Source: Cutibacterium porci
GTDB taxonomy: Bacteria > Actinomycetota > Actinomycetes > Propionibacteriales > Propionibacteriaceae
Length of the DNA stretch: 64,000 nucleotides
Reading direction: 5' to 3'
Assembly: GCF_009696315.1 (NCBI RefSeq)
Contig: NZ_VUMG01000002.1
Coordinates: 434,001 to 498,000, forward strand
The notes beneath the pieces were generated by a model that saw nothing but the letters and a program-made list of their open reading frames with translations, made no database searches and was not told the origin of the DNA. Positions within the stretch are counted from its first letter, which is position 1. Each line of letters begins with the position of its first letter. Below are positions 661 to 28,347 of the stretch, one piece after another. The position numbers were made by a program, and so were the translations under genes.

Positions 661-3600
661 TCAGGAAAGCTTAGCTATTGCCGAACGTATCCGCTTGGGC
701 GATACGCTGACGCGAGTACCGAGTTTCTGCGCAAAATACTGGATACGCAGCTCCTCCAGCATGAATCCGATTTCCTCGACCTCTGCGGGGAGTTTCCCGG
801 CCGGTTGTTTCTCACATAGCACGTCATAGTCAGCCAAGAGAGGCTCAAGCTCAGCCATCTGACGGGGATCACGAGAAGGATTAGTCGTTAAAGACTCGAT
901 ACGCACACTCACCCCATGGATCCAACGCGGCATGTCGTCATACCAGGGGTCCGGTGTGGCCGAAATGAAGTTTTCAAAAATGAGGTCGTCGATCTGGGCA
1001 CTAATGTCGTCTCGGATCGTCGGATCTGAGACGGTTGCCAAAGCTTGACGAGCCTCAACGAGGCGCGTAAGCACATTGCCAGCAGTACGCACGACGCGAG
1101 CCATCCGATCAGCCTGGTCCTGGCGGACGGCCAGGGAAAGATCGTCGAAGGCGTCCTACTGCGAATCCCCGAGAGGTCCCCGGCCTTCTCGTGCGCCACC
1201 GAAGCCACTGCCTTGTGTCGGGCATCTGCCAGTAGGTCCGGGACGCTGGGATACGGAGACGCGGCCAGGGCAAGTTTGGTGGCGTTGTCCATATGTGCGA
1301 CGACCCACTTCGTCGGATCAGGAAGGTTGAGGACGAGCAATCTGACGACGCCCGCAGCGTGACTGGTCTGCTGAGCACGAGCGGTATCGAGGACAGTCGT
1401 ACCGACGGAATCTCCCTCATCAACCAGGCAGGGATAGCCGACGGCGTTAGCGCCTTTGCGTGACAGGTCAATCCGCTCCGCAATCGAATCGAAGATCCAC
1501 TCCTTCGCACCGTGAATCTGAGGTCGGCCTGCAGCCTTTGTTAAGGACGCAGAGACCTTCGAGGCTAGATCGGTTTGCAAAGCATCCAGGTCTTCGGAAC
1601 GAGCGATATGTGTCGGGCGAGATGTCTGCGCCCCCTTGCCATTCTTTCTGGACTTTTTACTGGCGGGAGCTCCTTCGCCATCAACAATGTCGAAACCGAC
1701 GCGAAGATGTGCCGGAATGGCAGCGGTATTCCAATCCTTAGAATCGACGATGATGCCGGTGAGAGCTCTGAGTGCACGCCCAAGTTCTTCAGTAAAAGGC
1801 GCTTGACGGTCGGCGTCGTGGTCCTCCAGCCACGTCAGCGCCTCTCTGGCACGATCGGGGGCGGGAACTAACTGGGTGCGAATGCGTTTAGGGAGAGCGC
1901 GAATAAGTTCCGTCGCTAATTCGGTACGCAGCCCCGGCACCTGCCAACTAAATGGCGCTGTAGGAACCTGGTTGAGTAGCGCCAGTGGAATCGTGACGGT
2001 GACGCCGTCGTGCCCGGAACCCGGGTCAAAAACGTATCGCACCGGTAAATCGAGGCTTCCAACCCTCCAGCGATCAGGAAAAGCGTCAGCGTCCACAGAG
2101 TCGGAATCAACGAGATCTTCGATCGATAAATCGAGTTGGTGACGATCGCGTACTCGACGCCACCACGCGTCAAAATGTGAGCCAGAAACGATCCCGTCGG
2201 GGATCCGACGGTCATAAAAGGCAACAATGGCATCGTCATCGGCTACTAGTCCGCGCCTGCGGCTGCGCTCCTCAAGATCCGCAGCCTCGTCACGGACCCG
2301 ATCATTATGCTTGAGGAATCCGTGCGGTGACCGCCAGTCCCGATCTACCAGGGCCGACCGAATGAATATCTGCCGAGACACCACCGGATCAATGCGGCCA
2401 TAGTTGACTCGACGATCGGCCCACAATGGCACTCCAAAAAGTGTGCCACGCTCAGTAGCGACAACTGATGCTGTTGACGCTGCCCAATGCGGAGCCGTCC
2501 ACGAACGCTTGATGAGAGGGCCCGCAACCTCCTCTACCCATTCAGCCTGAATGGCTGCGACTGTCCTGGCCCACAATCGAGATGTCTCAACCAATTCAAC
2601 AGCCACAACGAGTTCAGGCGACTTACGCGCTAATAGCGACCCTGGATTAATAGCGAATGTTGTGCCACGGGCACCAAGGTATTCTTGCGGTCCATGACGC
2701 TGGCCACGCTGGCGAGGCGACTGTCGAACCCGAGCCAGCCCAATATGGGAGAGTAGTCCCGACAGCAACGCGACAAGGACCCGATCAGTCGGGGCAGGAG
2801 CCCGGTTGACCTCCAGGTGTAACTCCTTGGCGATGTGGCGGAGTTGGCCATGCAAATCGTCCCACTCACGCACCCTTAGGTAGTTGATGTACTCCGCCCG
2901 ACACATGCGTCGAAAAGCGGAGGATCCCATCCGTCGGCGCTGGTGACGCAGATACCGCCATAGCCGGTGGATGGACATGATGTCACCACCGTCGTCGATT
3001 CCACCCGCTTGGGGAGGTACGGGAGCCTTATCCCGACGGGAATTGGTATGCGGGGTATAGCGTGCTGGACTTCCCGGTCCAGCGGCATCGACATTTTCGT
3101 CATGACCATGATGTTGACGAACCTGAGACCAATCCCCTACCCGATTATTGTCGGCGCTATCAGCCGCACGGAGTGTCTGTAACAGGTTGGTTTCGGTGGC
3201 GAAACGCCGATGAAAGCTGTCAGCCTCCTCACGTTTTTCGGCGGGACGCTCCCGGACATCGCGAATTGATAAAGCCGCGACGATAACGAGAACTTCAGCC
3301 AGACTGCCCTGTTTCGCTCCTTCAAGAAGCATACGGCCTAGCCTCGGGTCTAGCGGGACCCGAGCTAGCTGGTGACCGATCTTTGTCAGACGCGGCGAGT
3401 CACGGTGTCCTGGCTTGAGAGCTCCAAGCTCGTCAAGAAGGCGGATTCCATCATTGATCTGGGATCGATCCGGGGCTTCAACGAATGGAAAATCTGTGAT
3501 CGCACCGAGCCTGGCTTCCGCCATCTGGAGGATGACGGCAGCCAGGTTCGTGCGCAGGATCTCCGGCTCAGTGAATTTGGGACGTGACTCAAAATTGGTT

Positions 3601-13289: not shown

Positions 13290-13637
13290 TCAGGATCTGA
13301 CTTCGGACAGCGCCGCTGGTTGATACCCGTCAATATGAACAACGCGAGTATGACCCTCGTAACCGACAGCAGGATCCCCTCGCCATATCTGACCAAGGCG
13401 CCCTAAGGCGAGAATCACCCCGACGATCATGACGGTGATGGTTGCTAGCACGGCAACATCCAAGAGTCGATCATGGTGGGGATGATGCGCGATCGCACCA
13501 GGCCGCCCCGCCATTAATTCCTGTCGGTCAATAACAACCACCGGCTCAGCCAATTCGTCCTGCCACGGCCCGACGACCAGGTCACCTCGATGACTGGGCG
13601 TCGTTTTGATATCCCATTCGTAAGTCTGAGCGCTCAT
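13290..13637 (-). CDS. Hypothetical single-span membrane protein
   Basis: 115 residues. A hydrophilic N-terminal part is followed by one clear transmembrane segment at about residues 59-80 (LLDVAVLATITVMIVGVILAL) and a short polar tail ending YQPAALSEVRS. GAGGT precedes the ATG. It lies between nrdR and the lexA-position gene, transcribed away from the latter. In many actinobacteria a LysM-type gene occupies this slot; I see no LysM motif here, so I do not transfer that name. Function unknown. Confidence 0.6.
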   Translation of the reverse strand: MSAQTYEWDIKTTPSHRGDLVVGPWQDELAEPVVVIDRQELMAGRPGAIAHHPHHDRLLDVAVLATITVMIVGVILALGRLGQIWRGDPAVGYEGHTRVVHIDGYQPAALSEVRS

Positions 13638-13789: not shown

Positions 13790-13818
13790 GAACACGAAGA
13801 GAACAACCTAGTCAGAAC
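13790..13818 (+). promoter_or_regulatory. Direct GAAC repeats upstream of the lexA-position gene
   Basis: GAAC occurs in the same orientation at 13790-13793, 13801-13804 and 13815-13818. The first two form GAAC-N7-GAAC (11-bp period, one helical turn). Two more GAACs are at 13869 and 13885, giving five in about 100 bp. GAAC is the actinobacterial LexA half-site, but no GAAC-N4-GTTC palindrome is seen here. Regulatory role is inferred. Confidence 0.45.
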
Positions 13819-13880: not shown

Positions 13881-13908
13881 TGACGAACTGTCGTAGCCGC
13901 CCTATACC
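13881..13908 (+). promoter_or_regulatory. Probable promoter of the lexA-position gene
   Basis: TGACGA (13881-13886), a 16-bp spacer, then TATACC (13903-13908). The ATG at 13918 is 9 nt after the -10 element and no Shine-Dalgarno is visible, so the mRNA may be leaderless. One GAAC motif (13885-13888) overlaps the -35 element. Confidence 0.5.
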
Positions 13909-13917
13909 GTGACTGCC

Positions 13918-14601
13918 ATGACCACCGATACGCCCGGAACCGACGCCTCGGACCCGGCTGCCGTCTCGTCGGCTGTTCCGTTCACGAATACCCGTGAGCC
14001 CTCCGCTAAGGAACGCGAAGTCTTAGCAATCATCAGGGAGGGGATACGTCGCGATGGCAAAGCCCCAACGGTCCGAGCCATTGTCGACATGACGGGTGCG
14101 GGGAGCACATCCACGATCCAGCGGCGTATTTCATCCCTCATTGATCTAGGGTTGCTGCGTCGAGCCAACGGCACTCTCGAAGTGGTCGAAGGCACAGTCA
14201 AAACCGCCGTTCAGCAGGGGCCGCAAGCCTTCCGCATTGAAGTCCCCAATCTGAGCAATAACGCCCCTGAAAAACGCGATGACACCGTCATCGCGGTGCC
14301 GACCCAACTTTTAAGCCACGGCGAACATGCCGTGGTTATCGCCCACGACGACGGAATGTCCCCCGATATCCGCTCCGGAGACCTCGTAGTGGTGCGGCGT
14401 ATATCAATAAGCGAGCTGCCCGATGACCCACCTGAGACCTACCTCGTAGCAGCCACGGTGGGAGGGGCGACAGTTGTTCGCACCCTATCCAAGGTCTCGG
14501 GACGGCCATGGCTGTTGGCCTCGAACCCTACCCACTCACCGATCAATCTTGACGACGCTTCCCTGCTAGGTCAGGCTGTGTCGTTGATGAGACGGCTCTA
14601 A
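13918..14601 (+). CDS. lexA: LexA-position repressor with degenerate peptidase domain
   Basis: 227 residues. The N-terminal winged helix (PSAKEREVLAIIREGIRRDG ... STSTIQRRISSLIDLGLLRR) and the C-terminal S24-like fold align along their length with actinobacterial LexA: SGDLVVVRR, YLVAATVGGATVVRTL, WLLASNPTHSPI and the LLGQAV end. Key differences: the Ala-Gly cleavage motif is absent (the region reads EVPNLSNNAPEK), the catalytic Ser position is Gly (DDGM instead of GDSM), and the catalytic Lys position is Val (ATVVR instead of ATVKR). It should therefore bind DNA but not self-cleave with RecA. The recognition helix also differs from typical LexA. Position beside nrdR-nrdJ and dinG supports orthology. 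A GTG at 13909 is an alternative start but falls against the -10 element. Confidence 0.8.
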   Translation: MTTDTPGTDASDPAAVSSAVPFTNTREPSAKEREVLAIIREGIRRDGKAPTVRAIVDMTGAGSTSTIQRRISSLIDLGLLRRANGTLEVVEGTVKTAVQQGPQAFRIEVPNLSNNAPEKRDDTVIAVPTQLLSHGEHAVVIAHDDGMSPDIRSGDLVVVRRISISELPDDPPETYLVAATVGGATVVRTLSKVSGRPWLLASNPTHSPINLDDASLLGQAVSLMRRL

Positions 14602-26496: not shown

Positions 26497-27039
26497 CTAG
26501 TCGAACAGGTCAGTGGTCGGGACGTCGGGGGGTTCCTCACCGAGTTCATCGTGCGCCGCGCGAATCGCTGCCCATGCGATCTGAGGACTGTAACCCTTGC
26601 GGGCGAGCGCCCCGAGCACTCGTCGAGTCAGCCGAGCTTCCTCAATTCCACGACCGGCACGCAGCTTCGTTACCGCCAGTTTCGTGGCGGCGTCGAGTTC
26701 GTCAGCGTCAGTGATCTGAGATGTCGCATCCTCGATGATGTGAGAATCGACCCCCTTACGAGACAGCTCGGCAGACACAGCTCTACGAGATAGCCCTTTC
26801 ATCCCATGCCGAGATGCCGTCCAGCGATTCGCAAAATCAGCGTCGTTAATCAACCCAACCTCGGCGAGACGATCGAGGACCGCCTCACGTACTGACTCAG
26901 GCACCCCTTTGGAATCAAGGACATCCGCAAGCTCGCGGCGGGTGTTAGCCCGACGATCCAGTCGTGTGAGGCAGATCTCTCGAGCTTCCTCATACCACTG
27001 GTCATCAGTCAGTTCTGGAGTTTCGCGTCGCCGATTCAG
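26497..27039 (-). CDS. recX: Regulatory protein RecX, probable CTG start
   Basis: 180 residues. The conserved RecX core begins [20 protein letters not shown], upstream of the first ATG or GTG in frame (GTG at 26904), which would delete it. Reading upstream in frame gives only a CTG at 27039 before a TGA. That CTG overlaps the recA stop as CTGA and has GAGGTG 5 nt before it, giving a natural N-terminus [15 protein letters not shown]. RecX binds RecA filaments and limits their activity. Coupling to recA would keep the two in proportion. The three-helix repeats ([40 protein letters not shown]) are intact. Confidence 0.88.
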
Positions 27040-28082
27040 AATTCCACCTCACCGGTCTGGGGATCGACGCCCTCAGGAACCTCGGCTTCCCGTAAACCGA
27101 GATGGGTCAAAATCTTGTCCTCAATCTCGTTAGCGACATCCGGGTTGCCCTTGAGGAAATTCCGAACGTTTTCCTTGCCCTGCCCCAACTGTTCATTGTT
27201 GTAGCTGAACCACGAACCAGACTTGACGATGAGCCCACAATCTACGCCCATATCAATGAGGCTTCCTTCGCGAGAAATGCCCTGCCCGTAAAGGATGTCA
27301 AACTCTGCTTGCTTAAAAGGTGGTGCAACCTTGTTCTTGACGACCTTGACTCGAGTGCGGTTACCGACCATCTCTGACCCATCTTTGAGAGTCTCGATAC
27401 GCCGCACATCGAGGCGCACGGACGAATAGAATTTGAGGGCGCGACCACCTGTCGTCGTCTCCGGAGAGCCGAACATGACGCCGATCTTCTCGCGCAACTG
27501 ATTGATAAAGATGGCAGTAGTACCGGCAGCATTCAATGCACCCGTCATCTTGCGCAATGCCTGACTCATGAGACGGGCTTGCAGACCAACATGGGAGTCC
27601 CCCATCTCTCCTTCGATCTCAGCCTTTGGGGTCAAGGCTGCCACCGAGTCGATGACGATGAGTTCCAAAGCACCCGAGCGGACGAGTGTGTCGGCAATCT
27701 CGAGGGCTTGCTCGCCATTGTCAGGCTGGCTTACCAACAGCGAATCAGTGTCAACCCCAAGTTTGCGTGCATACTCGGGGTCAAGAGCGTGCTCAGCATC
27801 GATAAAGGCGCAAATGCCGCCTTCGGCCTGAGCATTAGCGATGGCGTGCAAAGCTACCGTTGTCTTGCCAGACGATTCAGGACCATAAATCTCAACGATC
27901 CTGCCACGTGGCAGGCCCCCCACCCCCAATGCGACGTCAAGGGCCACCGAGCCTGTCGGGATAGCGGCGATTTTAACGGTCTCCTGCTCACCAAGGCGCA
28001 TGATAGAGCCTTTGCCATGTTGCTTTTCGATCTGCTGTAAGGCCGTGGCAAGGGCCTTTTCACGATCAGCGGTTGCTGCCAT
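27036..28082 (-). CDS. recA: Recombinase RecA
   Basis: 348 residues, complete. Walker [20 protein letters not shown], Walker B-like [11 protein letters not shown], the DNA-binding loop region [21 protein letters not shown] and [20 protein letters not shown] are all normal. It pairs DNA strands in recombination and, in most bacteria, stimulates LexA cleavage. GGAAGGA precedes the ATG. Its stop overlaps the likely CTG start of recX. The upstream region carries GAAC direct repeats and DnaA-box-like sites. Confidence 0.98.
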
Positions 28083-28239
28083 GTCGTTCCTTCCTCACAA
28101 GCGGTCTCCCGCCTCATTTGACGTGCGGCACCGCCGCAGCGTTGGTCGTACCTGGTGATGAGGAGCCCTGTCAGCCTCCTTGAGTCATCACCCAAACTGT
28201 AGGAGCGGAGTCGGACAATTCGTCAGGCAGTTTCGTAGC

Positions 28240-28283
28240 TGTGGATAACCTGTCGACATGCCCGTCCGCCCGGCTGTGGACAA
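28240..28283 (-). promoter_or_regulatory. Two DnaA-box-like sites upstream of recA
   Basis: On the minus strand, TTATCCACA (28240-28248) is a perfect match to the DnaA-box consensus TTATNCACA, and TTGTCCACA (28275-28283) is a one-base variant. Both point the same way and are 35 bp apart. Binding by DnaA is inferred. Confidence 0.5.
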
Positions 28284-28321
28284 CCCTTCCACATGTCACC
28301 GACGACAATCGAGCACACTGT

Positions 28322-28347
28322 GTTCCGGTTTTGTTCCGCCGCTGTTC
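28322..28347 (-). promoter_or_regulatory. Three GAAC direct repeats upstream of recA
   Basis: GTTC on the plus strand starts at 28322, 28333 and 28344, so the minus (recA) strand has GAAC-N7-GAAC-N7-GAAC with an exact 11-bp period. The same GAAC-N7-GAAC pair occurs before the lexA-position gene. Candidate operator. Confidence 0.5.

Follow-up and report, generated by a model that had tools for sequence, protein, structure and literature searches.

Among the described systems, the LexA of Synechocystis sp. PCC 6803 is the closest precedent for the protein reported here. According to passages of PMC3091678 and PMC7567884, it has lost both the Ala-Gly cleavage site and the catalytic serine, and is probably no longer an SOS regulator. 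Passages of the same two reports describe its site as the direct repeat CTA-N9-CTA (as cited in PMC3091678) and its activity as thought to be tuned by phosphorylation (PMC7567884). The repair genes of Synechocystis are thought to lie outside its regulon. A head-to-tail LexA box, GTTC-N7-GTTC, is also found in Caulobacter and other Alphaproteobacteria, as given in parts of PMC9578287 and PMC8565304. Mycobacteria possess a further regulator of the damage response, PafBC, which is activated by single-stranded DNA, acts at promoters of the type tTGTCRgtg-N8-TannnT (passages of PMC5656591 and PMC11804915) and works beside the LexA/RecA-dependent pathway (a passage of PMC5656591). We describe here a LexA from Cutibacterium that resembles the first of these systems in its protein and the second in its candidate operators, in a genus also carrying genes for the third.

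A LexA ortholog at the conserved lexA position

The window, the whole stretch of 64,000 nucleotides that was analysed, belongs to a Cutibacterium genome of 2.6 Mb (19 contigs, estimated completeness 100). It exhibits an intact ORF of 227 amino acids and the following associated features.

13918..14601, + strand: LexA ortholog without cleavage site, catalytic Ser and catalytic Lys (intact ORF, 227 aa)
14002..14193, + strand: winged helix-turn-helix, residues 29-92 (most constrained; recognition helix altered)
14194..14277, + strand: linker and old cleavage region, residues 93-120 (Ala-Gly gone; least constrained)
14278..14598, + strand: S24-like domain at the C-terminus, residues 121-227 (Ser and Lys of the catalytic dyad replaced; the rest aligning at full length to solved LexA C-terminal domains)
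13290..13637, - strand: small divergent frame between lexA and nrdR, conserved across the genus (hydrophobic stretch by eye)

The protein matches the LexA-type winged helix (PF01726, 31.0 bits against a cut-off of 23.7) and the S24 C-terminal domain (PF00717, 40.4 bits against a cut-off of 23.3). Its residues 118-226 match the solved LexA C-terminal domains 6a2q-6a2t (best E-value = 1.7e-12). A fold prediction from five sequences was poor except for the winged helix-turn-helix (mean pLDDT 49). An in-frame GTG is present at 13909, nine bases 5' of the lexA start.

On one side lexA is flanked by a convergent dinG, and on the other by the small divergent frame followed by nrdR and nrdJ. Both congeners that have an intact LexA exhibit the same gene order, as does G020, a more distant member of the family, in which the small frame was not detected. 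The small frame has no match in Pfam; it occupies what we take to be the position where other actinobacteria carry an SOS-controlled division inhibitor. The assignment made in the preliminary description, a LexA ortholog in the conserved slot between dinG and nrdR-nrdJ, is thus borne out by both domain matches and by gene order, and it rests mainly on gene position because the branch leading to the other LexAs is so long. With canonical actinobacterial LexA (TIGR00498; the intact Cutibacterium L014 and L015) the locus shares the slot, the domain order, the winged-helix and S24 profiles and the half-site GAACA. It differs in the absence of Ala-Gly, Ser and Lys, in a score of only 61.2 bits where the NCBIfam lexA threshold is 110.95, and in repeats at recA and lexA that are direct rather than inverted.

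Loss of the self-cleavage machinery

The LexA query matched all of the 57 genomes searched, its own included. The proteins of the best 30 of these 57 genomes, one per genome, were aligned; they comprise seven altered Cutibacterium LexAs, two intact ones from congeners and 21 others. The Ala-Gly site reads AAG in all 23 LexAs outside the altered group and is replaced by a shortened, unrelated stretch in the seven. The catalytic serine (GDSM or GESM) is kept in 23/23 and is a glycine (DGM) in 7/7, and the catalytic lysine (ATVK) is kept in 23/23 and is an arginine (VVR, IIR or IVR) in 7/7. All three motifs are therefore lost together in each altered protein and in none of the others.

These counts agree with what had been read from the window alone for the cleavage site and the serine. 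For the lysine, the loss itself stands, but the proposed replacement by valine is better read as Lys to Arg, since keeping TLS/SLA in register (VVRTLS against TVKTLS) aligns the lysine with the arginine. A sequencing error, which the preliminary description had argued against, is excluded by the presence of the same changes in six further genomes, one per species. The loss of the cleavage machinery is thus real and fixed across seven species.

The recognition helix, likewise thought to be altered, reads STSTIQRRI in the window LexA and STSSVQHQL in the intact congener G008. The altered LexAs keep STS, carry RR at the positions that read HQ in most intact proteins, and have a remodelled wing. 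As judged from the alignment, these changes may affect dimer geometry more than base choice.

No intact lexA, which would have undermined the proposed loss, was found elsewhere in the genome: TIGR00498 (E-values up to 10) gave one match, and a search with the protein itself revealed no second LexA. A weak second match (E-value = 0.07, at 462917) is not a LexA but another regulator, a 276-aa frame that looks to us like a DeoR-type protein.

Distribution in the genus, selection and origin

Seven of the nine Cutibacterium genomes possess the altered LexA: the present one (G000) and G002-G007, including a Cutibacterium MAG (G003), C. avidum (G005), C. modestum (G006) and C. namnetense (G007). G001 and G008 have an intact one. 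Both C. acnes lexA qPCR primers published in PMC11264938 match G002 without mismatch, alone among the nine lexA loci. The recA primer, tried on four loci, fits G002 and also G006.

The altered lexA evolves faster than its neighbours yet is under purifying selection. Its dN/dS is 0.10-0.24 in six comparisons with the window gene and 0.22 for G004-G005, and the median pN/pS over 21 pairs is 0.26 for lexA, 0.14 for dinG and 0.06 for nrdR (the hflX value for G000-G006 in the same comparison is an alignment artefact and was left out). Within lexA, pN/pS is lowest in the winged helix-turn-helix (0.17) and highest in the linker that once held the cleavage site (0.48), the C-terminal domain (0.24) and the N-terminal arm (0.28) lying between. 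Constraint is thus strongest in the DNA-binding domain and weakest at the old cleavage site, which indicates a working protein and not debris. In a phylogenetic tree, a fully supported branch of great length separates the seven altered LexAs from the others, with 4.44 changes per column on one side of the midpoint root and 1.98 on the other. This length and the fast evolution of the gene might be taken for decay of a lexA without function, a highly improbable explanation given a frame open in 7/7 species, dN/dS of 0.10-0.24 in seven pairs, the pN/pS values above and a conserved C-terminus.

The long branch fits one early burst of change, and the seven altered species look like the descendants of a single event; the altered protein and the altered operator described below hence amount to a single correlation. 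A mobile origin was considered and rejected. In tblastn searches the altered LexA matched 23 plasmid records (nine of the best ten annotated lexA) and two unannotated phage records, all below 60% identity, and a scan of viral contigs found no relatives.

The constraint on the C-terminal domain despite its lost catalytic residues would also suit a LexA that is still an inducible repressor, released by a housekeeping protease, an S24 ligand, a modification or competition with PafBC. The phosphorylation thought to tune the Synechocystis protein points the same way. However, nothing positive supports any particular route, and we regard such a release as rather unlikely.

Direct repeats in place of the palindromic box

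Upstream of lexA and recA, the window exhibits direct repeats of GAACA.

13790..13805, + strand: GAACA-N6-GAACA, direct repeat upstream of lexA and its candidate operator
27036..28082, - strand: recA, candidate target
28321..28347, - strand: array of three GAACA half-sites (period 11 bases) preceding recA, its candidate operator

In all nine genomes, a stretch of 330 bases preceding the recA, lexA and sbcD matches was scanned, with TCGAAC-N4-GTTCGA, an extended form of the Gram-positive box CGAAC-N4-GTTCG, as the palindromic reference. Of the 21 regions from altered species, 18 contain the exact direct repeat (6/7 for each of the three genes), against 0/6 from the two intact species, where the best matches have two or three mismatches. 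The exceptions among the 21 are recA of G006 (one base changed), lexA of G007 (two bases) and sbcD of G005 (an 11-base gap). The palindromic box with up to two mismatches exhibits the opposite pattern, being found in 0/21 regions from altered species and in 4/6 from intact ones. At recA, lexA and sbcD of the seven altered species, the best palindromes within the 330 bases have four or five mismatches. The recA box of the intact species (TCGAACACATGTTCGT or TCGAACATCTGTTCGC) is one mismatch away from the reference, and their lexA boxes are weaker, with two mismatches. No palindromic box was found at sbcD of the intact species, so sbcD cannot be shown to be an old target.

Three half-sites with an 11-base period precede recA in G000, G002 and G007. 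Beyond the three genes scanned, the repeat precedes radA in G004 and, with three half-sites, in G005, and in none of the remaining five altered species; recQ has an exact repeat in G004 and a one-mismatch repeat in G005, the gene there being recognised by its similar start. Checks of the repeat-bearing genes identified their products as RadA, a helicase of the RecQ family and a nuclease resembling SbcD, the last scoring below the SbcD cut-off (65.5 against 77.65 bits). No site was found at dinB within the 1500 bases scanned.

Several minor observations concern the same regions. In C. avidum, 54 bases upstream of sbcD (L201), one half-site is missing through an exact 11-base alignment gap, which looks like the deletion of a single repeat unit. 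The same genome has three GAACA half-sites in 11-base repeats (GAACACAGGAA) at L112 2997-3023, overlapping predicted frames. It also has a direct repeat upstream of a CRISPR-associated Cas_GSU0053 gene (L115, about 2967-3152), by which its CRISPR operon could be linked to the same regulator. Upstream of imuA (L218-L224), GTTC-N6-GTTC follows TGACAAGG in six of the seven altered species, with one half changed in G003. We did not count imuA as a direct-repeat target, this period being 10 bases rather than 11; in the imuA region of the intact G008, a pair of LexA-like palindromes is found instead.

Exact sites number 10 in G000, 7 in G002, 13 in G005, 10 in G004, 7 in G006, 7 in G007 and 6 in G003, against 1, 1, 1, 2, 1, 1 and 0 for the reversed pattern, triple arrays counting twice in these totals. 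The intact G001 and G008 have 1 and 3 exact sites (reversed pattern, 1 and 0). Many exact sites fall inside predicted genes and look like coincidences. The enrichment over the reversed pattern overstates the case, because repeats with multiple-of-three periods are common in genes. A second control kept the half-sites and varied the spacing, in G002 and G005, the two genomes with complete site lists. The N6 spacing gave 20 sites (7 and 13), and the five other spacings with a period that is no multiple of three gave 6, 6, 8, 4 and 6 (mean 6.0; Poisson P = 5e-6). As expected from coding frames, counts were as high or higher for periods of 9, 12 and 15 (21, 31 and 24). With one mismatch allowed, sites against control were 18/15, 17/11, 17/11 and 25/5 in four genomes, and near control in three. 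Genome-wide palindromes with two mismatches are uninformative in eight genomes (131-197 against controls of 136-188), and the intact G008 differs with 328 against 117. The recurrence at recA, lexA and sbcD is a stronger argument than the spacing statistic.

GAAC-N7-GAAC, contained in the Cutibacterium repeat, is the complement of GTTC-N7-GTTC, with the same half-site and the same head-to-tail spacing as the Caulobacter box; this arrangement is hence one that LexA proteins are known to read. Alphaproteobacterial LexA is a classical cleavable SOS repressor, whereas the altered Cutibacterium protein is without the cleavage machinery. Synechocystis belongs to another phylum, so the losses are independent, and in Cutibacterium the lysine has been lost too. 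The two also differ in that recA, lexA and sbcD of Cutibacterium carry sites. Were LexA to have left the repair regulon and taken control of different genes, as has been suggested in Synechocystis, the GAACA repeats would belong to a different regulator. The shared loss of Ala-Gly and Ser lends this some plausibility, and another factor could own the repeat. We nevertheless consider it unlikely, as the repeat fronts lexA itself in addition to recA, retains the GAACA half-site of LexA, and occurs at these genes in the altered clade but in neither of the intact species.

PafBC and the damage signal

A tandem pair of WYL genes, as in mycobacterial PafBC, is present in all nine Cutibacterium genomes. 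The pair of the window's own genome, for which PafB/PafC identity was checked, matches PafB (E-value = 4.6e-42) and PafC (1.9e-31) of solved complexes, and the PafBC entry 6sj9 (1.2e-37). Two sequences in the window resemble the mycobacterial promoter type.

13888..13910, + strand: candidate PafBC-type promoter of lexA, CTGTCGTAG-N8-TACCGT, 7 bases before the ATG
28196..28218, - strand: candidate PafBC-type promoter of recA, TTGTCCGAC-N8-TACAGT

Over its first nine positions, each departs three times from the consensus published in a passage of PMC5656591. In the recA element, TTGTCC and TACAGT are kept in all seven altered species, and the corresponding element of the intact species has one mismatch. 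The elements at recA and lexA of the altered species are thus conserved near-matches, to which we attach moderate weight. The lexA start is perhaps leaderless.

At lexA the repeat is found 82 bases upstream of the candidate promoter, and at recA 102 bases, a position more usual for activators. The altered LexA might accordingly be pictured as an activator, or a co-activator with PafBC; the sbcD repeat, however, lies 43 bases before the start codon, near where a repressor would sit, and such a role appears quite unlikely.

We consider it probable instead, on the sequence evidence, that a non-cleavable LexA reading direct repeats still governs repair genes, and that damage induction has moved to PafBC. 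LexA would have lost RecA-triggered self-cleavage in an ancestor shared by the seven altered genomes out of the nine, and its operators would have shifted there from the inverted repeat (GAACA facing TGTTC) to head-to-tail GAACA one helical turn apart. The LexA retained by selection, with its winged helix-turn-helix and S24-like domains, would have stayed on the promoters of recA, lexA and sbcDC, and on those of radA and recQ in some species, binding the repeats and repressing. RecA would be unable to remove it by cleavage; PafBC, the activator sensing single-stranded DNA, would supply damage-induced transcription instead, and LexA would become a level-setter or shut-off of the PafBC-driven response. 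Since lexA itself is preceded by a repeat as well as by a PafBC-like promoter, damage may increase the amount of LexA and thereby terminate the response.

The earlier suggestion of an SOS induction that is lost, or that answers to another signal, gains support from the missing palindromes, the repeats at repair genes and the presence of PafBC genes. That several repair genes carry a candidate control site of a new kind suggests that the seven species no longer run the textbook SOS response. More tentatively, and with some doubt, this may extend to a general description of the clade that includes C. acnes, in which an uncleavable LexA would read tandem GAACA (two or three per promoter) and keep the repair genes while PafBC induces them.

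C. acnes is among the commonest bacteria of human skin. In qPCR, as described in a part of PMC11264938, the lexA gene of this species has served as a marker of the SOS response. If its LexA is uncleavable, lexA expression would not be simply readable as SOS activity, and drugs aimed at LexA cleavage would lack a target in these bacteria. Full-text searches, judged by title and the start of the abstract and mostly covering literature outside subscription, found no paper on such a LexA in Cutibacterium. A non-cleavable LexA is already known as a kind; as far as we have seen, what is new is the lineage, the repair genes carrying sites and the intact species alongside. If true, this would be the first actinobacterial case as far as the searches show, both states being preserved within a single genus, and the clade would have converged independently on the operator of Caulobacter and the protein of Synechocystis. 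A genus with both states would offer a tractable system for the shift from inverted to direct repeats and for the replacement of an SOS network.

Two sequences that we take to be DnaA-box-like, TTATCCACA and TTGTCCACA, are found at 28240-28248 and 28275-28283 (- strand) of the window, between the GAACA array and the candidate recA promoter; TTGTCCACA is kept in 7/7 altered species and TTATCCACA in 6/7. In both intact species, TTGTCCACAGG likewise comes after the LexA box. All nine genomes possess one Y-family polymerase. A second and more distant one, ImuB-like by our reading, is present in all seven altered species and in one of the two intact species.
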